Shown here one piece after another: positions 47,206 through 59,413 of a DNA stretch of 64,000 nt. This DNA is from a bacterium SCSIO 12643. Its GTDB lineage: Bacteria; Bacteroidota; Bacteroidia; Flavobacteriales_G; Salibacteraceae. The stretch is from positions 2,170,001 through 2,234,000 of the forward strand of contig CP073750.1 in assembly GCA_024398135.1 (NCBI GenBank). Direction: 5' to 3'. The number at the start of each line of letters is the position of its first letter. Position 1 is the first letter of the stretch. Both the position numbers and the translations under genes were made by a program. The notes under the pieces are model-generated. The model had not been told where the DNA came from, searched no databases, and saw nothing but the letters and a program-made list of their open reading frames with translations.

Positions 47206-48195
47206 TTGAAAAATAGAAAACAAAGAATATCGGTTTTTATTTATTTACTCATGGGGTATACGATCATCCAATTTTTTTGGTGGACGTATCTCATTTTTGA
47301 GCTAAATGCGGAGATCATTGAACTGGAAAAACTAATTATTAGAGTGGGGAATATAGAGACTGTAGAGTTTATTGCAGCACAGGATAATTTAGATTCGGAG
47401 TTTTTTAAAAAGAAAATGATGATCATGGGAGAAGGTGGGGTCTTCCTATTGATTCTGTTGACGGGTTTCTATTTGATCAAAAGATCTCATCAGAAAGAAT
47501 TAGATCTGGCGAAACAGGAACAAAACTTTATGCTGGCGATAACTCATGAATTAAATTCTCCATTGGCCGCAATTAAGTTAAATATTGAAACTTTAATGCG
47601 GAGAAAGTTGGCAGCGGATAAAGTGAATATGGTTTTAGAACGTACGATGCAGGAATCCGAAAGGTTAAATCATTTAATCAATAATATTTTGGCAGCTTCA
47701 AGAATGGAGAAAACAGGGTTTGAGTTATACCCGGAACAAACGGATTTGGTAGAAAATGTAAAGCATTTGGTTCACAAATATGAGCATCTCATTCCTCAGA
47801 AAATTGAAATCGAATCAGACCCATCCATTCAGGTAGAAATTGATGTTTTAAGTTTTGAATTAATTCTTCAGAATTTATTGGAGAATGCATCGAAATATAG
47901 TGAAGATGATACCGTGATCACGGTTTGGTTAAAATCAAAAGAAAATGTGATTTGTATGAAAGTGAAAGATTTGGGTATTGGAATTAGCGATGAAGAAAAA
48001 CCTAAGATACTTTCAAAATTTTATCGAGTAGGAAACGAGTCTACACGTAAATCAAAAGGTACAGGATTGGGATTGTACTTAGTATCTAATCTGGTAAGTG
48101 AAATGAACGGAAGAGTTTTGATTCAAAACAATCAACCTCAGGGAACCATATTCACAATAGAGTTCCCCAAGTCTGATTTAAAAGTTGAGGTTTAG
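47206..48195 (+). CDS. Two-helix membrane sensor histidine kinase
   Basis: The 329-aa kinase starts at TTG (47206). It has TM1 (about 9-31) and TM2 (about 72-92) around a 40-residue periplasmic loop, then HisKA with His in LAITHELNSPLAAIKLNIE (about 111). The HATPase domain has the N-box NLLENASKYSEDD, G1 DLGIGISDEEK and G2 GTGLGLYLVSNL. No response regulator adjoins it. Its stop overlaps the convergent CHU_C gene by four bases. The signal is unknown. Confidence 0.9.
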   Translation: MKNRKQRISVFIYLLMGYTIIQFFWWTYLIFELNAEIIELEKLIIRVGNIETVEFIAAQDNLDSEFFKKKMMIMGEGGVFLLILLTGFYLIKRSHQKELDLAKQEQNFMLAITHELNSPLAAIKLNIETLMRRKLAADKVNMVLERTMQESERLNHLINNILAASRMEKTGFELYPEQTDLVENVKHLVHKYEHLIPQKIEIESDPSIQVEIDVLSFELILQNLLENASKYSEDDTVITVWLKSKENVICMKVKDLGIGISDEEKPKILSKFYRVGNESTRKSKGTGLGLYLVSNLVSEMNGRVLIQNNQPQGTIFTIEFPKSDLKVEV

Positions 48196-51100
48196 TCTAT
48201 GACGTTGACCGTTCCGGTCATGTCAATTTTTTGTTGCTGGAAGCCTTCAACGGTAATCTTATAAATGTAAGGTCCATTCATTACACGTTTGCCGTTTTGT
48301 GTTCCATCCCATTCGAAATCACTAGATCTTGATGAGAAAACCAATCCTCCCCAGCGATCAAATATCTCAATTCTGAATTCTTTGATCTCATAGCCTTGTT
48401 TAAACCCTTCACCATAAACTTTAAAGACATCGTTTAAGTTATCTCCATTTGGGGTAAACGCGTTTGGAACAAAAGCAATAAGCGGAGGAGTAATTCTATG
48501 ATATGCGGTATCAATACACCCATTAGAATCAGAGGCCACCAATAGAACGTTATATTCTTTACTAAACTGATACTGTTTCAGAGGCTCAAATACGGTTGAA
48601 GTTGTATCTCCATCCCCAAAGTCCCATAGATAGGTATGCGCATCCTCAGAAAGGTTTTTGAATCCTACGTTGAACGCATCAAAGAAGAAGTGTTCAAACT
48701 CTGCAGATGGATTAGAAATGGTAATATTAATATCATCGGTATCTCTGATTTTACAATCATCGGTAACGGTCACGTCATAGAACTGACCAGTATTGGTTTT
48801 AGACCTTAATGTCGGACCTACAGTTCCGTCATTCCATAGATAGGAATAATTTCCGGCACCTCCAGTTACCACAGCTTCAATCACCACTGGCTCTTGTTGA
48901 CATAAATGGGTGTCCGGAGGTAAAGTGACTATCAAAGGATCGTGAGATCTCACCACATAAGTTAATGTCTGGCTGGTAGAATCATTGTTACAACGATCTA
49001 CAGCTTGAATGGTAAACGTTACGGTTGAATCAATTTGAGCATAGAAATAATTGTTCGTAGTAGCCCAATTATCCCATGAGACATAAGAATCACCACTCCC
49101 ACCTTTGACTTGAGTGGCGCCAACGGTTACAATTTCTCCGGGACAGTTAAATGTATCTCCAATGAGTGTGTCAATGTACAATGGAGGATACGTTATCATA
49201 ATGGCATCTACATTTGCAGTTACAGTATCCAGTCCACATATGTCGGTAACAGATACGGTATAAGTCGATGTATTTCCTGTGGCGACAACGCTTTTCACTG
49301 AATCTGTTCCCCCTCCACTCCAGGCATATGTATATGGAGGATATCCTCCACTAGCAAATACTTGCAATACTGCGGTATCCCCAATACATTGGAAGGATTT
49401 ATTTGGCGCATACAATTGAACTGGATTGTTGATGACATATACTGTAGCACTATCTGTAATTGACCTGACCCCACATGCATCAGTAGCTGTAAAATAATAG
49501 GTTGTGGTTACAGAAGGATTGACAAAAGTAGACGTGCCAGATGCTGCGCCACCGCTCCATTGATAATTAAAACTTGGGGTGGCATTTGTGACATGAGCCG
49601 TGAGTACCGTACCTCCATCAATACAACTGATCGTATCATCATCAATATTGATGGTAAAAGGAGGATTATCTACGACCAGTTCAAACGTATCCGTTAAATA
49701 TTGTCCGGAACAGGTTTGTGAGACCGTGACCATAAAATTGGTTGTGGTAAACGGATTGAACCCCCAAAAGGATTGGCTGGTATGCCCGGTATTCCATTGG
49801 ACCTGCATGTTGGGCATGGAGTTAGTAATGTTGACGTACACCGGTGCTCCGGATGATTCACATGTAATCGTATCCGAGGGGGCATCTATACTAATGACGG
49901 GATTCTGTATGACCAGATGGGCAGTGTCAATTATGGTATAAATAGAACAAGCATCCGTAATTGTTACGATGTAAGACGTGCTGACCGTTGGCGTTGGATT
50001 AATTGTAATCGTATCTGTGGTGTCTCCAGTATTCCAAATGAAATTAAATGGAGACAGACCTGTGGCATTTGTTGCAAGTTGCGTATTATTTTGTGTACAG
50101 TTAATGGTATCAGACCATGCATCAGACAGTAAGGGGAGTGGATCATGGATTACGATCTGTAAAGTGTCTCCGGTTCCGGTACATGTGACTAAATCAGTAT
50201 CCGTAACAAATACCATAAGTGTTTCAGGACCTTCTACTAAATAGTCATTTGGAACCAGAAAGGTATGTGTAAAAGAAGTTTGACCTGGTTGGAAAATAAC
50301 ACTGTCTGGAAGAAGTGTATAATCAATTCCATTTGTTGCGTTACCCGAAATATCAAAGTGAATGGTATCTGCATTCTGAATATTATCTGCACGAATTACT
50401 TCCATATCGATCGAACCGCAACCTTCATAAAGAATAGAATCACCACCCAGGTCGTATGTCGCATTAAATGCAACTTGTACACCAGTTGAGTTAAAACTAT
50501 TTGCCTCCATCAATACATACGAAGAAAGTGCGCCATCTGATCCATCAGCAATTGCCATTGTAAAATTGTAAGTTTGACATGGTTGAACCACAAACTCCAC
50601 TTCCATAATGGTTGTATAATGTGCAGTCATTCCCGAAGCAGTGGCAACGTTAGGTACAAAATAAGTCGGATATGAGTTGGTACATGTACTTGGGCTATAT
50701 CCGGTAGCATTAATTGATGTAATGGTAATTGGAATATTGGTCCCTGGAATAACGGCATAATTTTCTGCGCCATTAGGATATCCTGGAGGGCTATAATAAC
50801 CTCCTGAAATACCAGGTCCAGATACAAAGAATCCAAATACATCGTTGTAAGAAGAACATGGGAAACTTGGCCATTCCTCAGATGCAAATACGAATCTGAA
50901 ATGCATGGTATCCAGAGTCGGAACAAAATCAAAAGAAATAACCGCAGCATCATTTACATCATTTGGTGCGGTTCCAAAACCTAAAAGTGTCGGTACAGAT
51001 GCGGATACATTATATAAGTTATTATTTGTTGTTGATCCAGTTGCTGCTCCCATCCATGGAAATCCAAATGTCGTTCCGTTAAATCCACCCGGATTACCTG

Positions 51101-51395
51101 GAACTGTAGATGCGTTTGGACAGTTGCTATTACACAATGCGTTAATGGTTCCGGTTGATAATACAACCCCACTATCTAGTCCAATGGTTGAGTTTCCCGT
51201 AAAAAATCCCATTTGGCTGGAGTTACCATAGGAAGTAACATTTGAAATGGTCACATTCCCTCCGGCAAAAACATCGTTAATAAGGTAAAAAGGAGTATTA
51301 TAGGGTGCAGTATTAGAGGTGCTAAATTGAGCCATAAGAGATGGACTTATTAGCGATAATGTTAAAACGGTAATAACAAAGTAAATTTTTTTCAT
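48192..51395 (-). CDS. Choice-of-anchor L/PKD surface protein with T9SS type B C-terminus
   Basis: The 1067-aa protein starts at MKKIYFVITVLTLSL (signal peptide to LMAQ); the upstream in-frame extension lacks a signal sequence. Residues about 24-270 are a choice-of-anchor L domain (DSGVVLSTG, FVFASEEWPSFPCSSYNDVFG, YAVIPGTNIPITI). A Calx-beta-like domain follows (about 310-375; FQPGQTSFTHTF). About six Cys-bearing SprB/Ig-like repeats come next, then PKD (WDFGDGDTT, about 920) and CHU_C (AFTPNGDNLNDVF ... IFDRWGGLVF). It is predicted to be exported by the T9SS and exposed on the surface. An adhesin or gliding role is inferred. Confidence 0.88.
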   Translation of the reverse strand: MKKIYFVITVLTLSLISPSLMAQFSTSNTAPYNTPFYLINDVFAGGNVTISNVTSYGNSSQMGFFTGNSTIGLDSGVVLSTGTINALCNSNCPNASTVPGNPGGFNGTTFGFPWMGAATGSTTNNNLYNVSASVPTLLGFGTAPNDVNDAAVISFDFVPTLDTMHFRFVFASEEWPSFPCSSYNDVFGFFVSGPGISGGYYSPPGYPNGAENYAVIPGTNIPITITSINATGYSPSTCTNSYPTYFVPNVATASGMTAHYTTIMEVEFVVQPCQTYNFTMAIADGSDGALSSYVLMEANSFNSTGVQVAFNATYDLGGDSILYEGCGSIDMEVIRADNIQNADTIHFDISGNATNGIDYTLLPDSVIFQPGQTSFTHTFLVPNDYLVEGPETLMVFVTDTDLVTCTGTGDTLQIVIHDPLPLLSDAWSDTINCTQNNTQLATNATGLSPFNFIWNTGDTTDTITINPTPTVSTSYIVTITDACSIYTIIDTAHLVIQNPVISIDAPSDTITCESSGAPVYVNITNSMPNMQVQWNTGHTSQSFWGFNPFTTTNFMVTVSQTCSGQYLTDTFELVVDNPPFTINIDDDTISCIDGGTVLTAHVTNATPSFNYQWSGGAASGTSTFVNPSVTTTYYFTATDACGVRSITDSATVYVINNPVQLYAPNKSFQCIGDTAVLQVFASGGYPPYTYAWSGGGTDSVKSVVATGNTSTYTVSVTDICGLDTVTANVDAIMITYPPLYIDTLIGDTFNCPGEIVTVGATQVKGGSGDSYVSWDNWATTNNYFYAQIDSTVTFTIQAVDRCNNDSTSQTLTYVVRSHDPLIVTLPPDTHLCQQEPVVIEAVVTGGAGNYSYLWNDGTVGPTLRSKTNTGQFYDVTVTDDCKIRDTDDINITISNPSAEFEHFFFDAFNVGFKNLSEDAHTYLWDFGDGDTTSTVFEPLKQYQFSKEYNVLLVASDSNGCIDTAYHRITPPLIAFVPNAFTPNGDNLNDVFKVYGEGFKQGYEIKEFRIEIFDRWGGLVFSSRSSDFEWDGTQNGKRVMNGPYIYKITVEGFQQQKIDMTGTVNVID

Positions 51396-51508
51396 TCCCC
51401 TAAAGTTTATACTACATTGAATCCAGAGCCAAAAATTGTGTAATTTGGCTGCCCTGAAAACGCTTTTCAAGGCAATTGGTTGCCTCACAAATGTAATAAA
51501 ATATATAT

Positions 51509-52897
51509 ATGAATAATACACAGAGTTTTATCGCAGAGAATAAGACGAAATTCTTAGATGAGTTGTTTGATCTGTTGCGTATCCCTTCAATAAGCGCAAA
51601 CCCTGATCATAAGGAAGATATGTTAAAAACAGCAGAGGTTGTGAAGCAATCTTTATTGGATGCTGGGGTAGATGTTGCCGAAATATGTGAAACCCCAGGA
51701 AACCCAGTGGTTTATGGTGAGAAAATCATTGATCCGAGTTTGCCAACTGTGGTCGTTTATGGACACTATGATGTGCAGCCTGCCGATCCATTAGATTTGT
51801 GGGATTCTCCGGCATTTGAACCTGTGGTGAAGAAGACGGAAATTCATCCTGAGGGAGCTATTTTTGCGAGAGGAGCCTGTGATGACAAAGGTCAAATGTT
51901 TATGCATGTAAAAGCATTTGAGGCTATGAATAAATCAAATGAACTTCCATGTAATGTGAAGTTTATGATTGAAGGAGAGGAAGAAGTAGGTTCCACCAGT
52001 TTAGGAGGCTGGGTAAAAGCGAATCGTGAAAAACTAGCTGGCGATGTGATTTTGATTTCTGATACGGGAATGTTGGGAAATGATATGCCTTCAATTACCA
52101 CTGGATTAAGAGGTTTAAGTTACGTTGAGGTTGAAGTGACCGGACCAAACAGAGATTTGCATTCCGGATTGTATGGAGGAGCTGTAGCCAATCCAATTAA
52201 TGTCTTGAATAGAATGATTGCATCATTGCAAGATGAGAATAAGCATATTACCATTCCTGGTTTCTACGATAAAGTGGTGGAGTTAAGTGATGAAGAACGT
52301 GCGGATATGGCCAAAGCACCATTCAATGTGGAAGATTATAAAGCGGCATTGGATTTGGGAGATATCGAAGGAGAAGCAGGCTACTCTACGATGGAAAGAG
52401 CTTCAATTCGTCCAACACTAGACGTGAATGGAATTTGGGGAGGTTATACCGGAGAAGGTGCAAAAACAGTAATTGCATCAAAAGCATATGCGAAGATTTC
52501 TATGCGTTTAGTTCCGGATCAGGATCCTGATGAGATTACAGAGCTATTTAAGACGCACTTTGAAAGTATTGCACCTGAGAGTGTAAAAGTAAACGTAACA
52601 GCATTCCATGGGGGACAACCTTATGTGTCTCCAACGGATTCAATCGCATATCAAGCGGCAAGTAAAGCGATGGAAGATGCTTTTGGTAAGAAACCGATTC
52701 CTGTACGTTCAGGTGGTTCTATTCCAATTGTATCTTTATTTGAACAAGAGCTTGGAATGAAAACTATTTTGTTTGGTTTTGGTTTGGATTCAGATGCAAT
52801 TCACTCACCAAATGAGCACTATGGATTATTTAATTTCTACAAAGGAATTGAGACTATTCCACATTTCTACAAGCATTTTACTGAGATGAAGAAATAA
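51509..52897 (+). CDS. M20 family dipeptidase
   Basis: The 462-aa di-zinc peptidase has VVVYGHYDVQPADPLDLWDS (metal His/Asp around residue 90), ARGACDDKGQ (bridging Asp), MIEGEEEVGS (catalytic Glu) and a dimerisation lid (about 210-330). The C-terminal His is in DAIHSPNEH. It resembles carnosinase/CNDP-like dipeptidases. It is divergent from the CHU_C gene with its own terminator. Confidence 0.93.
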   Translation: MNNTQSFIAENKTKFLDELFDLLRIPSISANPDHKEDMLKTAEVVKQSLLDAGVDVAEICETPGNPVVYGEKIIDPSLPTVVVYGHYDVQPADPLDLWDSPAFEPVVKKTEIHPEGAIFARGACDDKGQMFMHVKAFEAMNKSNELPCNVKFMIEGEEEVGSTSLGGWVKANREKLAGDVILISDTGMLGNDMPSITTGLRGLSYVEVEVTGPNRDLHSGLYGGAVANPINVLNRMIASLQDENKHITIPGFYDKVVELSDEERADMAKAPFNVEDYKAALDLGDIEGEAGYSTMERASIRPTLDVNGIWGGYTGEGAKTVIASKAYAKISMRLVPDQDPDEITELFKTHFESIAPESVKVNVTAFHGGQPYVSPTDSIAYQAASKAMEDAFGKKPIPVRSGGSIPIVSLFEQELGMKTILFGFGLDSDAIHSPNEHYGLFNFYKGIETIPHFYKHFTEMKK

Positions 52898-52920
52898 TTT
52901 AGGATGATATTAAAACGAAA

Positions 52921-52946
52921 AAAGCTCAAGGTTTTCCTTGAGCTTT
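52921..52946 (+). terminator. Rho-independent terminator after the dipeptidase
   Basis: Perfect 11-bp stem AAAGCTCAAGG with TTTT loop and T-run. Confidence 0.9.
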
Positions 52947-52970
52947 TTTTATGCCTTCCTGAAAAAGAAA

Positions 52971-53000
52971 AACAGGATACAAACTTAATTGTATCCTGTT
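52971..53000 (-). terminator. Terminator of the beta-helix lipoprotein gene
   Basis: A perfect 12-bp inverted repeat (AACAGGATACAA) with 6-nt loop; on the minus strand it runs into TTTTTC. It lies 50 bp downstream of the lipoprotein stop. Confidence 0.82.
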
Positions 53001-53049: not shown

Positions 53050-54324
53050 TTAAAGAGCAGTAGTCCATCCGCTTGTCCAATCATCAGAAGATTGTACAGC
53101 ACCAATGTAGTTAGCAGCGTTGAACCAAGATCCTAAAGAAGATGGGTCAGTGCTTTCAGAACCAGTGTAAGTTCCAACGTATCCATTTAAGAAAGAAGCG
53201 TCAGTAACACTGTTTTTAGCATCGTTTTTGAATTTATCACAATCTTTCCAGGCTTTAGTCATGTCAACTGGAGCACTGATAGAAGAAGTTACTAATAATG
53301 AACCATCAGCCATGTTATCACCAGTTTGAGTAGAAGGATCTTCGTCAGAAACTCTAACACCATATTTTGTAGCCTCAACAACGATTGCGTTATAGATTTT
53401 ACCTTTAGTACCAGCTCTTAAACGGAATCCAGTGTTTTTGCCATCGCCATCGTCAGCCATCAATACAGTTACGTTAGAGATAGTTGGGTTAGAGAATGGA
53501 GTAGCAGCGTTATCATCACCGTTGTTATCACATTCGAAACCTCTATCACCTTTATCAGTACCCTGGTTTACAACTAAGAATTGAGCGTTTCCAACCCATC
53601 CTTGAGTCCAGTCGAAAGAATCATCATGGTTTCCAGTAGAAATACAGTGACGAACGTTTACAGCACCACCGAAGAATTCGAATCCATCATCAGCACCTCT
53701 ATAAGCTTGTAAGTAAGAAACTTGAGTTTCTGAACCAACAGCGTTGAATGAGAATCCGTTCAATTCGTTATCAGTACCTAAGATACGACCAGCGTATTCA
53801 ACAACGATATATTTCATAACACCTGAGTTATCCGCATTGTTATCACCACCGTAAGTTCCAGTTCCACCTTCACCTTCAGCAGTTCCACCAGCTACGTTAA
53901 TTTTTCCGTAACCGTTAACGATAATACCACCCCAGTCGCCAGGAGCAGGAGTAGATTTTACAGTTGTAAAACGAATTGGTTTTGCAGCTGTTCCTTCAGC
54001 CATTAATTTACCACCTTGAGCAATAGATAAAAATGCAGTAGCACCATCGTCAGCAGCTTTTACTGTAGTTCCAGCTTCGATAGTTAAAGTTCTTCCAGAG
54101 TTTACGAAAACACCACCTGAAAGCATCCAGTTTTCATCAGCAGTTAAAGTATAGTTTTCGTTAAATTTACCTTGGATTTTTTTGTAAGTAACACCGTCAA
54201 CTACTTCGTCAGTAATAAAGTAAGTTTTTGATGCTGGTTCCGGGTCGCTATCTTTTTTACAAGAAGATAAGCCAGCCAATATTGCTAGAGACAAAAGACC
54301 GAATGATTTTGTAATCTTTTTCAT
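53050..54324 (-). CDS. Asp-rich beta-helix surface lipoprotein, TonB-receptor partner
   Basis: This 424-aa protein has a lipoprotein signal: lipobox LSSC with Cys22, followed by KKDSD, similar to the surface-export tail described for flavobacterial lipoproteins. Residues about 75-330 look like a right-handed parallel beta-helix (GGVFVNSGRTLTIEAGTTVKA; WGGIIVNGYGKIN; ISNVTVLMADDGDG). They are very rich in Asp/Asn/Gly, with clusters such as GADDGFEFFGG, GNHDDSFDW and ECDNNGDD that suggest Ca2+ or other ligand binding. No catalytic site is evident. It lies downstream of the TonB receptor but has its own promoter with an identical repeat operator. A ligand-capture role is inferred. Confidence 0.82.
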   Translation of the reverse strand: MKKITKSFGLLSLAILAGLSSCKKDSDPEPASKTYFITDEVVDGVTYKKIQGKFNENYTLTADENWMLSGGVFVNSGRTLTIEAGTTVKAADDGATAFLSIAQGGKLMAEGTAAKPIRFTTVKSTPAPGDWGGIIVNGYGKINVAGGTAEGEGGTGTYGGDNNADNSGVMKYIVVEYAGRILGTDNELNGFSFNAVGSETQVSYLQAYRGADDGFEFFGGAVNVRHCISTGNHDDSFDWTQGWVGNAQFLVVNQGTDKGDRGFECDNNGDDNAATPFSNPTISNVTVLMADDGDGKNTGFRLRAGTKGKIYNAIVVEATKYGVRVSDEDPSTQTGDNMADGSLLVTSSISAPVDMTKAWKDCDKFKNDAKNSVTDASFLNGYVGTYTGSESTDPSSLGSWFNAANYIGAVQSSDDWTSGWTTAL

Positions 54325-54370
54325 TTTTGAAGTTTTAATAATAAAATTCGTTTTGTTTAATTCTTTGCTG

Positions 54371-54378
54371 CAAATCTG
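54371..54378 (-). promoter_or_regulatory. Degenerate -7 box of the lipoprotein gene
   Basis: On the minus strand CAGATTTG has one mismatch to TAnnTTTG. The operator repeats begin 22 bp further out, where a -33 TTG would be expected; no clear TTG is present. Confidence 0.5.
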
Positions 54379-54400
54379 TTCAACTCGTGTTGTTTTGGGC

Positions 54401-54458
54401 TTAAGTCAGTATTAACGAATAATTAATTAATACAGGGATATGTTAAGTGAATGTTTAG
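54401..54458. promoter_or_regulatory. Five-repeat TTAA operator upstream of the lipoprotein
   Basis: TTAA-core repeats start at 54401, 54412 and 54423 (11-bp period), then at 54443 and 54454 (11-bp period; the last reads TTTAG). The step between groups is 20 bp. The layout is identical to 57511-57568. An 11-bp tandem repeat is the spacing of PhoB/OmpR-family sites. On the minus strand, CTTAACAT occurs in both operators. Confidence 0.72.
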
Positions 54459-54530
54459 AATTAAAATTTTGGTTTAAATGAAGGGTTATTAATAATACTG
54501 TAAATGTGCAGAATAAAGGGTGTAAAACAA

Positions 54531-54561
54531 AAAAGCCGAAACATTCAATGTTTCGGCTTTT
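54531..54561 (-). terminator. Terminator of the TonB-dependent receptor
   Basis: A perfect 14-bp stem (AAAAGCCGAAACAT) with a 3-nt loop; on the minus strand the T-run follows 19 bp past the receptor stop. This shows that the receptor and lipoprotein are separate transcripts. Confidence 0.9.
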
Positions 54562-54579
54562 TTGAAATAAATATTAAAC

Positions 54580-57447
54580 TTAGTTGTTAGTGAAGATTTT
54601 ATATACTAAAGTACCACCTACTGTGATTCCTCTTTTGTAAGAGCTCACGATTGTAGGTGCATTTCCCTGTGTAGATTCTTGCTCAACTTGAATTTCTGGA
54701 TTTAGTAAATTGCTGGCTGAGATATTGAATTGCCAGTGATCACCAAAATCATTCTTCCAGGTTAAATTCAAAGTGTTGATTGCTCTTTCGTAAGAATCAC
54801 CAATATTTTGTCTACCTACCGCATATAATCTTCTACTGAAGAAGTTATAAGAAGCTGTGATGGATACTTTGTATTTCTCAGTATATCTTTTTTCGTAAGT
54901 TAAATCCGCATTGGCAAGAATTGGTGATGCGCCTTCTAACTGTCTGTTTGGATTGTTAATTGTTACGCTACCACCAGTGGTGTTGTTGGTATCAATTTCA
55001 ACTTTTGAATAAATGTATGAGAAGTTTGCTCCGAAAGCTAAGTTTCTCAATGGAGATGAATCTGAAACAAAGTTTCTGAACTTTTTGATGAACTCAAATT
55101 CAATACCATATGCTTGTGCTGATTTTGCATTTTGGTATGTTAAAAGGATACCAGATGCAGAACCAATAGTAACTTGCTCGATTGGTTTATCGATCATTCT
55201 ACCAAAAACGGTTACAGAGTATAAATCTCCAGAGTTTGGATAGCGTTCAAATCTTAAGTCCAAGTTGGTGTTACTTGAGTTTTGAAGTAATGGGTTACCT
55301 TGTCTTACTTTACCCCCAAAGAACTCACGATACTGGAAAGGAGCCATTTCTTTAAAGTTTGGTCTGGTAATCGTTTGAGAAGCTACGAATCTTACCGAAG
55401 ATTTCTTATTTGGCGTATACTTTAAAGAGGCCATTGGTAAGATACTTAATGTATCAATTACTTCACTTTCTACGAATTGAGGCTCTAAAGGACTTGATTG
55501 ATTTCTGTAACGAATTTCCTGGTAACTTTTCTCCACACGAGCACCTGCTAAAGCATACCATCTTTCATTAAAATGGTAATCCAATGAAGCATATCCGGAG
55601 TGGATATTTACAGTACCTTCGGTTGCAGACTCTGGTCTTGACTCTTCTCTTTGCCAGAAGAAACCTTGTTCGTGATTCGCATCATTAATATAGTAATCAG
55701 GATTGTTCGCATCTACAGATTCAAATCCATTCGCTTGATTGATTCCTTTTAAGTTATGAGAATAGAACTTAAAATCCTGAGTTCTGGTTTTTAATCTTCC
55801 CTGGTATCCACCAGAAACAGTCATTTTTGCTTTTCCTGTTGAATCTTCTTGAAGAACGTATTTACCATTAACTGCAAAGTTGATTTCACGCTCATCCAGA
55901 TACATGTAGTAACGGTGTTGATCCGCAATATTATCTGTGAAGAATTGGTACTCATCTCTTGGAGCCCCTGGATCATGTGTCCAAATTAATTGTCTTCTGT
56001 CTGGTTCCTTTGAACCGGTGATTTGGTAAGCTGCATTCCAGTTAATCGTTAATTTCTCATCTTTTAATTTATGAGAACCTAAGATTTGGTTGGTCCATAA
56101 TTTGTTTTGAACCCAGGTGTATCTTCTTGTGAAGATATCTCCAAGGTTGTCGTAATCCCAGTGATAACCATCAGTTTCTCTAACAACATCTCTAGATAAG
56201 TTCACAAACATGGTGTTGAACTTAATGTTGTTGTTACTGTTGAAACGATAGTACAAAGATCCTAATGATGACATGCTTGTAGATTGGATACTTGCATCAT
56301 AGGTATAGTCAATGATTCTTGCATCTTGTGCATTTACCACACGGTGAATACCGCTTACGTTGTTGTTTTTGTTTTCAAAGCTTGTTAAAACTAAGAAACC
56401 AAGACCTTTACTATTGTCATCATTCCCATAGAAGTTACCTAAGTTAAATCCGAATTTAGAATTGATAGGAGCATTGATAAATGATGGGTTGAAGTTCTTT
56501 TTGAATGGAATTCCAGGATAAGATGGGTTTTTACCCGCATCGTTACTGTTGTATAATTCCTTTGGAGGATTGTCCAGTTTGTTCCATTGTGGATTCAACT
56601 CAGAAGGAACTGCACGTGTACCATCATCAAATCCGAAATAATCTAATTTACCACCATCATAAGTCATAAATGTTTTTCCGGTAGTTTGTGTGTTCATCCC
56701 AAGACCACCATATACGTTGAAAGTTTTATCCTCAGGATAATCTTTAGTGTTGATGTTAATAGATGCTCCGGAAACGTCACCAAATTGATTTGGAGTAAAC
56801 GTTTTTGCCACAGTTAAACTCTGAACAACAGATGTAGGGATGATATCCAAAGGAATCACCTTTTTATCCGGATCAGGACTTGGTAATGGAATGCCATTTA
56901 AGTATGCATTGTTATAACGGTCTCCCAATCCACGAACCAAAATACTTCCGGCTCCTACCTGTGATACACCCGACATTTTTGCTAAACCTTCCTGAACATC
57001 ACCAGCACCTTTTTTAGATAACTCTTGTGCGCCAATTTTTTCTTCTAAAGCTTCCGCATCTTGCCTTTCCATCATCAAAGCACTTTCTGACTCACGGTTT
57101 GCTTTAGCAATTACCTGAACCGATTTTAAAGAGAAAGATTTTTGTTGAATCTGAAAGTTTAATTCATAAGTCCCACCTTCAGCAACAGTAACTTCAGTGG
57201 TGTCTGTTTCGTATCCGGTGAAACTAACCGTCACGCGATGTGTTCCTACAGGAGCATTGATTTGAAATTTACCATCAAAGTCTGTAGTCCCCCCACTCGT
57301 TGTGCCTAATAAAAACACATTGGCGAATGGTACGGGCTCCTGTTTACCGTCAATAGATTCAGTAACTAGCCCTTTAATTGTTCCCGTCTGCGCCCAGGCG
57401 CTAAACGTAAAAATAATCCCTAATAGAAATAATCCGATATTTTTCAT
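54580..57447 (-). CDS. TonB-dependent receptor with carboxypeptidase-like N-domain
   Basis: The 955-aa outer-membrane protein starts at MKNIGLFLLGIIFTFSAWAQ; the frame extends 12 codons further. After the signal peptide comes a CarboxypepD_reg-like domain (about 20-105), a plug domain (about 115-235; VLVRGLGDRYN-type segment SILVRGLGDRYNNAYLNG and PLDIIPTSVVQSL) and a 22-strand barrel region to the C-terminus. There is no SusD homologue nearby; the partner is the beta-helix lipoprotein. It is divergent from a PhoB/PhoR-like system with the repeat operator in between. The substrate is unknown; phosphate or a phosphorylated compound is suggested by the regulator. Confidence 0.92.
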   Translation of the reverse strand: MKNIGLFLLGIIFTFSAWAQTGTIKGLVTESIDGKQEPVPFANVFLLGTTSGGTTDFDGKFQINAPVGTHRVTVSFTGYETDTTEVTVAEGGTYELNFQIQQKSFSLKSVQVIAKANRESESALMMERQDAEALEEKIGAQELSKKGAGDVQEGLAKMSGVSQVGAGSILVRGLGDRYNNAYLNGIPLPSPDPDKKVIPLDIIPTSVVQSLTVAKTFTPNQFGDVSGASININTKDYPEDKTFNVYGGLGMNTQTTGKTFMTYDGGKLDYFGFDDGTRAVPSELNPQWNKLDNPPKELYNSNDAGKNPSYPGIPFKKNFNPSFINAPINSKFGFNLGNFYGNDDNSKGLGFLVLTSFENKNNNVSGIHRVVNAQDARIIDYTYDASIQSTSMSSLGSLYYRFNSNNNIKFNTMFVNLSRDVVRETDGYHWDYDNLGDIFTRRYTWVQNKLWTNQILGSHKLKDEKLTINWNAAYQITGSKEPDRRQLIWTHDPGAPRDEYQFFTDNIADQHRYYMYLDEREINFAVNGKYVLQEDSTGKAKMTVSGGYQGRLKTRTQDFKFYSHNLKGINQANGFESVDANNPDYYINDANHEQGFFWQREESRPESATEGTVNIHSGYASLDYHFNERWYALAGARVEKSYQEIRYRNQSSPLEPQFVESEVIDTLSILPMASLKYTPNKKSSVRFVASQTITRPNFKEMAPFQYREFFGGKVRQGNPLLQNSSNTNLDLRFERYPNSGDLYSVTVFGRMIDKPIEQVTIGSASGILLTYQNAKSAQAYGIEFEFIKKFRNFVSDSSPLRNLAFGANFSYIYSKVEIDTNNTTGGSVTINNPNRQLEGASPILANADLTYEKRYTEKYKVSITASYNFFSRRLYAVGRQNIGDSYERAINTLNLTWKNDFGDHWQFNISASNLLNPEIQVEQESTQGNAPTIVSSYKRGITVGGTLVYKIFTNN

Positions 57448-57480
57448 TTCTGTATATATTATACGTACGATAATGTGGCG

Positions 57481-57488
57481 CAAAAGAA
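57481..57488 (-). promoter_or_regulatory. Degenerate -7 box of the TonB-dependent receptor
   Basis: On the minus strand TTCTTTTG has one mismatch to TAnnTTTG. It is exactly 22 bp from the first operator repeat, as in the lipoprotein promoter. Confidence 0.5.
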
Positions 57489-57510
57489 CTTCTATAATGA
57501 TACTTTGCGC

Positions 57511-57568
57511 TTAATTCAATCTTAAGGTTGAGTTAACTAATTCGGCTTTATGTTAAGCTAGTATTAAG
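57511..57568. promoter_or_regulatory. Five-repeat TTAA operator between receptor and phoB-like gene
   Basis: TTAA-core repeats start at 57511, 57522 and 57533, then at 57553 and 57564: two groups at 11-bp period separated by a 20-bp step. All five cores are exact. It lies upstream of both the receptor (minus) and the response regulator (plus), so it could control both. It matches the second operator at 54401-54458 in every spacing. Confidence 0.75.
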
Positions 57569-57665: not shown

Positions 57666-58331
57666 ATGAATAAGATACTTTTAGTAGATGATGACCCGGA
57701 TATTTTAGAATTTATAGAGTATAATCTTGAAAAAGAGGGTTTTGATGTTTCTACTGCCGCTGATGGAATTGAGGCTTTAAAGAAAGCTGAAGAGATTGTG
57801 CCGGATCTGATTCTTTTAGATATGATGATGCCGGAAATGGATGGCGTGGAGACCTGTACTAAATTGCGTGAAATAGATTCAGTTAAAAATACACGTATTG
57901 CTTTCTTAACTGCGAGAGGGGAAGATTACTCTCAAATCGCTGGTTTTGATGCGGGTGGAGATGATTACATCTTAAAGCCTGTAAAGCCAAGAGTTTTGGT
58001 GAGTCGTATTAAGGCTTTGTTAAGAAGATCAAGTGATGTAGATAACAATGCACAGGAAAACGAAGGGTTAAAAATCGATAGAGAACGTTATGAAGTTACA
58101 CGTGATGGAGAAAGAATCTCTTTACCACGTAAAGAATTCGAATTATTAGCCTTGCTGATGTCTAAATCTGGTAAGGTATTTACACGTGAAGTAATCTTGT
58201 CGACCGTTTGGGGAGAAGAAGTTGTTGTTGGAGATAGAACCATTGATGTTCATATCCGTAAGTTAAGAGAAAAATTGGGTAGTGATTATATTAAAACGGT
58301 AAAAGGAGTAGGCTATAAATTTAGTGCCTAG
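57666..58331 (+). CDS. PhoB-like response regulator (OmpR family)
   Basis: The 221-aa protein has a receiver domain (1-120) with acidic pocket D8/D9, phospho-acceptor D52 in LILLDMMMPEMDG and the switch Thr/Lys in FLTARGED and YILKPVKP. A winged helix follows with FELLALLMSKSGKVFTREV and GDRTIDVHIRKLREKLG, close to the PhoB recognition region. Such regulators bind 11-bp direct repeats, and two TTAA repeat arrays flank the adjacent receptor system. The kinase gene follows by 38 bp. Confidence 0.93.
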   Translation: MNKILLVDDDPDILEFIEYNLEKEGFDVSTAADGIEALKKAEEIVPDLILLDMMMPEMDGVETCTKLREIDSVKNTRIAFLTARGEDYSQIAGFDAGGDDYILKPVKPRVLVSRIKALLRRSSDVDNNAQENEGLKIDRERYEVTRDGERISLPRKEFELLALLMSKSGKVFTREVILSTVWGEEVVVGDRTIDVHIRKLREKLGSDYIKTVKGVGYKFSA

Positions 58332-58369: not shown

Positions 58370-59413
58370 ATGAAAGAAGAATCACCGCACGATATTGCGC
58401 GTAAGATTTCAGTATACATATATGTAGTTCTTACGTTAACCTTGCTACCATTGGTATTGTATTATACGCATGGGTGGAAGCCTATTGTTGTATTTACAGC
58501 AGTAATGGGAGTTGTTTTTTATGCAATATGGCGTTTGATCAAATACAATATTGAGTTCTTTGTTTATAGAAGAATTAAATTGATCTATAAAACGATTTCC
58601 AAATTGAAAACCAATAAATATCCGCAGGAAGCGATGGATTATGAAACGGATATTATTGGAGATGTAAACAAAGATGTTTTACAATGGGAGAAGGAAAGTA
58701 AGAATGAAATTCGTCAGCTAAAAGAACAGGCCAAATACAGAAAGGAATTTATTGGGAATCTGGCGCATGAGTTAAGAACTCCGGCATTTAATATGCAAGG
58801 ATATTTGTTGACCTTGATAGAGGGTGGACTGGAAGACCCAAAGATCAATACCAAATATTTAGCGCGCGCAGATAAGAATCTGGATCGTTTAATTTATTTG
58901 ATTAACGATTTGGATAAGATTACGCGTTTGGAAGCAGGCGAAGATCCTTTGGAAATGGAGGAGTTTGATTTGGTGGATTTGGCCAATGAGCTGGTAGATT
59001 ATCAAGAGGACCGTGCATCAGAAAAAGAAATTGAAATCACTGTAGCCAATTCCGATAAGCCATTGAAAGTAATGGCCGATAAGGAGAAAATTTCCCAGGT
59101 GTTTACCAACCTGATCGTAAATGCCATCAGATATGGGAAAGACAAAGGGTGGATCAAGATTCGTTTCTATGATATGGCCGATAATATTCTGGTGGAGATT
59201 GAGGATAATGGGATTGGTATTGCGGAAGAAAATATCCCAAGGCTTTTCGAACGTTTTTATAGAGTAGACAAATCCAGAGCGCGACACTCAGGTGGTACAG
59301 GATTAGGGTTGGCTATTGTAAGACATATTATAGATGCACATCAGCAAACTATTAATGTACGAAGCGCCATTGGAGAAGGCTCGGTGTTTTCATTTACACT
59401 TGCAAAAGCTTAG
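58370..59413 (+). CDS. PhoR-like sensor histidine kinase
   Basis: The 347-aa kinase has two adjacent N-terminal helices (about 14-33 and 37-58) with almost no periplasmic loop, like PhoR. A cytoplasmic coiled coil (about 65-125) precedes HisKA with His133 in GNLAHELRTPAFNMQGYL. The HATPase_c domain has the N-box NLIVNAIRYGKDKG, G1 EDNGIGIAEENI, F-box RLFERFYRVD and G2 GGTGLGLAIV. Lack of an external domain implies sensing through another membrane complex or in the membrane. It is co-transcribed with the regulator. Confidence 0.93.
   Translation: MKEESPHDIARKISVYIYVVLTLTLLPLVLYYTHGWKPIVVFTAVMGVVFYAIWRLIKYNIEFFVYRRIKLIYKTISKLKTNKYPQEAMDYETDIIGDVNKDVLQWEKESKNEIRQLKEQAKYRKEFIGNLAHELRTPAFNMQGYLLTLIEGGLEDPKINTKYLARADKNLDRLIYLINDLDKITRLEAGEDPLEMEEFDLVDLANELVDYQEDRASEKEIEITVANSDKPLKVMADKEKISQVFTNLIVNAIRYGKDKGWIKIRFYDMADNILVEIEDNGIGIAEENIPRLFERFYRVDKSRARHSGGTGLGLAIVRHIIDAHQQTINVRSAIGEGSVFSFTLAKA

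Follow-up and report, generated by a model that had tools for sequence, protein, structure and literature searches.

TTAA-repeat operators in fixed phase with the -7 box: candidate Pho boxes at two promoters beside a PhoB/PhoR-like system in a member of the Bacteroidota

Regulators of the PhoB family bind head to tail on tandem direct repeats, and in E. coli they activate transcription from repeats that take the place of the upstream promoter element. The E. coli Pho box consists of CTGTCAT-type repeats, with the boxes ending about 10 bp from the -10 element. Phosphate-poor waters, soils and plant roots harbour Bacteroidota in abundance; many members of the phylum lack the textbook Pst importer, and their promoters are unlike those of E. 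coli. In our search of the literature, a Bacteroidota Pho box was found for Riemerella anatipestifer and Bacteroides fragilis only. The DAP-seq motif of the PhoB-like Riemerella regulator PhoP is TTTAACA, which is termed ArcA-like, so that 11-bp repeats are implied (PMC9603813); B. fragilis PhoB binds the pstC promoter (PMC3547664). Outside the phylum, the box of cyanobacterial SphR, built of CTTAACCT repeats, has 8-bp boxes joined by 3-bp linkers, with at least three boxes in tandem (PMC1906773). In Flavobacterium johnsoniae, the TonB-dependent transporter and lipoprotein of the PhoBR cluster are strongly induced on phosphate depletion (PMC8115612).

The locus described here lies in a 64,000-nucleotide stretch (the window) of the 4.1-Mb genome of strain SCSIO 12643 (Salibacteraceae; contig CP073750.1, positions 2,170,001 to 2,234,000), to which coordinates refer unless they are given as contig positions. 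A PhoB-like response regulator of the OmpR family (57666-58331, plus strand; Response_reg and Trans_reg_C domains) is followed by a PhoR-like sensor kinase (58370-59413, plus strand; HisKA and HATPase_c), in which no PAS domain was detectable with Pfam. The two top-scoring NCBIfam families for the regulator are TIGR02154 PhoB (223.8 of 296.2 bits) and NF053854 Bacteroides PhoB (211.5 of 270 bits); because neither curated equivalog cut-off is reached, we call the protein only PhoB-like. The top matches of the kinase, PnpS and PhoR, are likewise under their cut-offs. Divergent from the regulator is a TonB-dependent receptor gene (54580-57447, minus strand), encoding 955 amino acids from the ATG at 57447, with Plug and CarboxypepD_reg domains and with TonB-Xanth-Caul as its top NCBIfam match, again under the cut-off. 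An alternative TTG start at 57483, which would give a longer ORF, lies upstream of the predicted transcription start. The next gene (53050-54324, minus strand) is an ORF for a 424-residue lipoprotein with a lipobox cysteine, for which no Pfam or NCBIfam family was matched. Its structural model (pLDDT 75) matched many parallel beta-helix proteins with VIA-align (Z about 19-21); a Foldseek search with the same model matched beta-helix proteins weakly, none with an E-value below 0.001. The lipoprotein is thus predicted to be a parallel beta-helix, the VIA-align matches backing a common fold and no function. An intrinsic terminator with a 17-bp stem (54528-54564, minus strand), predicted from RNA folding (-22.2 kcal/mol, z -7.5), separates the two genes. 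The receptor and lipoprotein genes therefore probably form two transcription units, and the lipoprotein gene probably needs a promoter of its own. A tandem pair of terminator-like hairpins is found 3' of the lipoprotein gene (52918-53000), and elsewhere in the window (48192-51521) there is a gene for a long secreted protein of 1109 amino acids whose C-terminal PNAFTPNGDNLNDVF resembles a gliding-motility or type IX secretion sorting domain.

The preliminary description of this DNA had reported that the two upstream regions align without gaps, and this is so: 54371-54458 and 57481-57568, both read on the minus strand, share 54 of 88 positions (61%). Counting along this alignment, exact TTAA occurs at positions 12, 28, 32, 43 and 54 in the lipoprotein site and at 1, 12, 32, 43 and 54 in the receptor site. 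The operator had been called an identical five-repeat, which is slightly overstated: four of the five boxes (12, 32, 43 and 54) are exact in both sites, but the most upstream box of the lipoprotein is CTAAAC. In the candidate lipoprotein operator (54401-54458, minus strand), a TTAA triple in 11-bp steps (54401-54404, 54412-54415 and 54423-54426) is preceded by a box at 54443-54446, within CTTAACATA, and by the degenerate CTAAAC at 54453-54458; an additional TTAA lies at 54427-54430. The candidate receptor operator (57511-57567, minus strand) has its triple at 57511-57514, 57522-57525 and 57533-57536 and an upstream pair, both TTAA, at 57553-57556 and 57564-57567. Tandem 11-bp direct repeats are thus seen in the triple of both promoters and in the exact upstream pair of the receptor. 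The sequence CTTAACATA (plus strand TATGTTAAG) is common to both sites at the same offset, as had been noted.

Both triples stand at the same distance from a -7-like box, the last TTAA being followed after exactly 22 bp by CAGATTTG at the lipoprotein promoter (54371-54378, minus strand) and by TTCTTTTG at the receptor promoter (57481-57488, minus strand), in agreement with the spacing first proposed. These boxes are assigned from sequence and from congeners, which keep the spacing of the former and the position of the latter; each has one mismatch to the Bacteroidota sigma-ABfr -7 consensus TAnnTTTG. With the offset taken over from the -7 element of F. johnsoniae (PMC6847099), transcription is predicted to start near 54366 for the lipoprotein (leader of about 42 nt) and near 57476 for the receptor (about 29 nt). 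No -33 TTTG was found 19-21 bp before the -7 box at either promoter; TTAA is found there instead, so the proposal that the repeats replace the -33 element holds in that the last TTAA occupies the expected -33 position. A search for the E. coli-type CTGTCAT core gave no TGTCA repeat at either site, the cores being TTAA(C), and a sigma-70 promoter scan gave matches no more numerous than in shuffled sequence.

TTAA is palindromic and frequent in AT-rich DNA, which counts against a Pho-box reading. When the two upstream regions were shuffled, at least four in-register TTAA were found in 0 of 5000 shuffles and three in 23 of 5000, and the triple with TTTG never appeared in 5000. The whole genome was searched blind for exact patterns, with the reversed sequence as control. 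TTAA-N7-TTAA-N7-TTAA, which is identical on either strand, was found only at the two window promoters, and the triple followed by N26-TTTG likewise gave these two matches and none in the control. A TTAA pair followed by N26 and TTTG was at background over the whole genome, both in the exact search (12 matches vs 10 in the control) and in a fuzzy one (187 vs 198; the fuzzy listing is without the two window sites, both of which the exact search lists).

The pair matches nevertheless differ in kind from those of the control. Six of the 12 exact matches lie just upstream of a correctly oriented gene, compared with one of 10 in the control, where matches are mostly intragenic. The six genes encode the receptor, the lipoprotein, a paralog of the lipoprotein, a phytase (PF02333), a MauG-like di-haem protein (PF03150) and an M23 peptidase. 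At the phytase promoter (contig 3179433-3179477), the TTAA pair and a perfect -7 box, TAATTTTG, stand just upstream of the gene with N22 between them. The paralog (gene at contig 4032319-4033470, minus strand; site at 4033625-4033669) is 48% identical and follows the N26 rule, also with a perfect -7 box; its mRNA may be leaderless, since the predicted start coincides with the A of the ATG. In a MAFFT alignment with the other promoters the boxes of the paralog were not registered, although the exact pattern finds them. At the promoter of the MauG-like di-haem cytochrome c peroxidase (contig 87858-87902), the box pair is 164 bp upstream of the gene, with a poor -7 box. In F. johnsoniae, depletion of phosphate induces phytase and MauG-like genes that belong to these two Pfam families (PMC8115612). 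A pair with the longer gap of N37 before TTTG gave 8 matches vs 2 in the control. Among these sites is one 25 bp upstream of the gene for a Na+/Pi cotransporter fused to PhoU domains (contig 1887143-1888908), where 37 bp separate the TTAA pair from the TTTG within a perfect TAGATTTG box. This site is found with its gap unchanged in both congeners and also in several more distant genomes, and in some family members a few kilobases at most separate the cotransporter gene from the phoBR cluster. In the genome of SCSIO 12643, searches for PstB and PstC gave no match above cut-off, and a stand-alone PhoU was likewise not detected. A gap of N15 was also tried in this genome and gave no convincing site, with matches below the control. 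A 34-bp sequence with a TTAA pair occurs twice on the minus strand (contig 3955745-3955778 and 3956332-3956365), 587 bp apart, and is probably a duplicated segment.

The cluster of phoR-phoB, receptor and lipoprotein genes is retained throughout the family, with gene order varying in some genera; synteny also extends beyond the family, and lipoprotein orthologs adjoin phoB in other genomes. The preliminary description had made its reading depend on the presence of the layout upstream of orthologous receptor and lipoprotein genes. There it is present in congeners and reduced in other genera, where the 22-bp spacing is the same. Both promoters retain the boxes and this spacing in two congeners; in genomes of genus g9, the receptor promoter retains the triple at exactly this spacing. 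Across 41 genomes, the triple with TTTG gave 9 matches vs 4 in the control, 6 of the 9 being at receptor or lipoprotein promoters. Several orthologous promoters, above all those of distant lipoproteins, are without clear exact boxes. The upstream pair is set off from the triple by a break of 20 bp here and of 19 bp at the receptor promoters of the congeners; the 20-bp break is genus-specific. Spacings of 20 bp or 31 bp as a general rule were rejected, as there was no phylum-wide enrichment.

Enrichment over the phylum was examined at 95 loci upstream of phoB, with 80 PhoB loci added from named Bacteroidota genomes. TTAA pairs 11 bp apart numbered 23 at the family loci, where 1.3 were expected, and 76 at the 76 loci outside the family, where 7.1 were expected. 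Because the species are related, the counts should not be taken as strict probabilities; more weight falls on the comparison with neighbouring spacings, enrichment being confined to 11 and 22 bp, with 9, 10, 12 and 13 bp at background. When all 256 4-mers were scored at 56 spacings, a scan without prior choice of motif, the five strongest signals were GTTA, TTAA, TGTT and TAAC at 11 bp and TTAA at 22 bp; the G 5' and the C 3' of TTAA thus belong to the signal, as GTTA, TAAC and TGTT at 11 bp indicate. Low-GC control tiles had 0.096 pairs per 400 bp, compared with 1.042 upstream of phoB, and none of the top 4-mer signals was seen in these AT-rich tiles. Phase with the -7 element recurs as well. 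On the strand divergent from phoB, gaps from pair to TTTG peak at 26 (10 loci) and 37 (14 loci), with neighbouring gaps mostly at 0-3, and on the phoB strand they peak at 15 and 26. All three gaps equal 4 modulo 11, which is the commonest TTTG phase in all three promoter sets, including that of pst; upstream of pst genes in other Bacteroidota, 13 TTAA pairs were found vs 4.1 expected.

The reading that we prefer, with a probability of about 0.87, is that both sites serve as Pho boxes for the PhoB-like regulator encoded alongside, and that at low phosphate PhoB activates the receptor and the lipoprotein genes separately. The layout itself is observed, as are its conservation, its fixed phase with the -7 box, its recurrence at further phosphate genes, and the terminator. 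PhoB binding, activation, phosphate as the signal and the start sites are what we infer, taking support for binding and induction from the literature on relatives. Other members of the OmpR/PhoB family could use such repeats in response to a signal other than phosphate, since ArcA and further members also bind 11-bp TTAA-like direct repeats, often three to five (PMC3798270). The Riemerella PhoP has been tied to aerotolerance besides phosphate (PMC9603813), and our regulator is under the PhoB equivalog cut-offs. We nevertheless consider a different regulator with an ArcA-like motif unlikely: the repeats are enriched phylum-wide upstream of phoB itself, and upstream of pst; further matches in the genome include the phytase and the Na/Pi cotransporter; and the corresponding gene set of F. 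johnsoniae is induced at low phosphate (PMC8115612).

Two further explanations seem less probable still. TTAA is flexible, and in F. johnsoniae promoters AT-rich motifs outweigh any -33 motif (PMC6847099), so the ladder might be an AT-rich UP-like or bendable promoter element without a specific regulator; enrichment at 11 and 22 bp only, its absence from AT-rich control tiles and the flanking G and C in the signal make this very improbable. Least probable of all is that the likeness of the two promoters reflects only recent copying of one from the other. The 61% identity over 88 bp would fit a copy, but in the congeners each of the two promoters retains its boxes and spacing, and the same rule is obeyed at the cotransporter and phytase promoters, whose sequence is otherwise different.

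If both sites are Pho boxes, PhoR would phosphorylate PhoB when phosphate is scarce, and phosphorylated PhoB would bind, as tandem subunits facing the same way, to the direct repeats with TTAA(C) cores that are spaced by 11 bp. Relative to the predicted start, the boxes would begin at about -38, -49, -60, -80 and -91, giving a bound region of about -38 to -91, with the -38 box in the place of the weak Bacteroidota -33 element. With the most downstream box at the -33 position, the promoter-proximal PhoB could contact the sigma factor or polymerase and so activate, by the class II route, a promoter whose -7 box is imperfect. Five boxes in a ladder probably make activation cooperative and strongly switched, and the receptor and lipoprotein genes, as distinct transcription units, would be placed on one common switch. 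A wider proposal, which we hold only tentatively and think rather doubtful, is that this lineage may run a Pho circuit that dispenses with both PstSCAB and stand-alone PhoU, in which PAS-less PhoR, PhoB and the box-controlled Na+/Pi cotransporter-PhoU might form a minimal sense-and-respond loop, and that one 11-bp code (TTAA boxes with a gap of 15, 26 or 37 bp to the -7 TTTG) might govern PhoB-activated promoters throughout Bacteroidota.

We class the site as a probable operator of the Pho-box type; the kind is known, and the phase-locked spacing rule was not found described, our literature search having returned neither a fixed phase with the Bacteroidota -7 box nor the naming of a regulon from such a rule. 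Since the rule recurs at phosphate genes across the phylum, it can be used to predict phosphate-responsive genes. A Pho box at a fixed distance from the -7 element would make Bacteroidota phosphate regulons predictable from sequence, would give unnamed receptors and beta-helix lipoproteins a link with phosphate scavenging, and would offer a clear system for how activators act with the unusual Bacteroidota sigma factor. The closest counterpart in gene content is Fjoh_0543-0546 of F. johnsoniae, where PhoR, PhoB, a TonB-dependent transporter and lipoprotein FII are clustered; that study has no promoter or operator analysis, and the gene correspondence is drawn without direct sequence-orthology comparison (PMC8115612). 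In both context and predicted fold, our lipoprotein is like the FI/FII lipoproteins of F. johnsoniae. Riemerella PhoP, from the same phylum and order, shares the TTAAC(A) core and binds upstream of its own operon; the portion of the report considered gives no -7-box geometry, multi-box layout or receptor-lipoprotein link, and PhoP is likened here to the window PhoB without orthology comparison (PMC9603813). The SphR box has the same TTAAC core and 11-bp period (PMC1906773), but belongs to another phylum and sigma factor, has other flanking bases and is without the 19-20 bp break. E. coli ArcA sites also consist of direct repeats, two to five in number and mostly with 11-bp spacing; ArcA is a redox regulator whose sites are not fixed in position relative to the promoter, whereas the boxes described here are phase-locked to the -7 box (PMC3798270). 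As in the E. coli Pho box, a PhoB-type regulator is paired with 11-bp tandem direct repeats in place of the upstream promoter element, but the core is TTAA rather than TGTCA, and in the two window promoters 22 bp lie between the end of the last core and the -7 box, which puts it one 11-bp step farther upstream.
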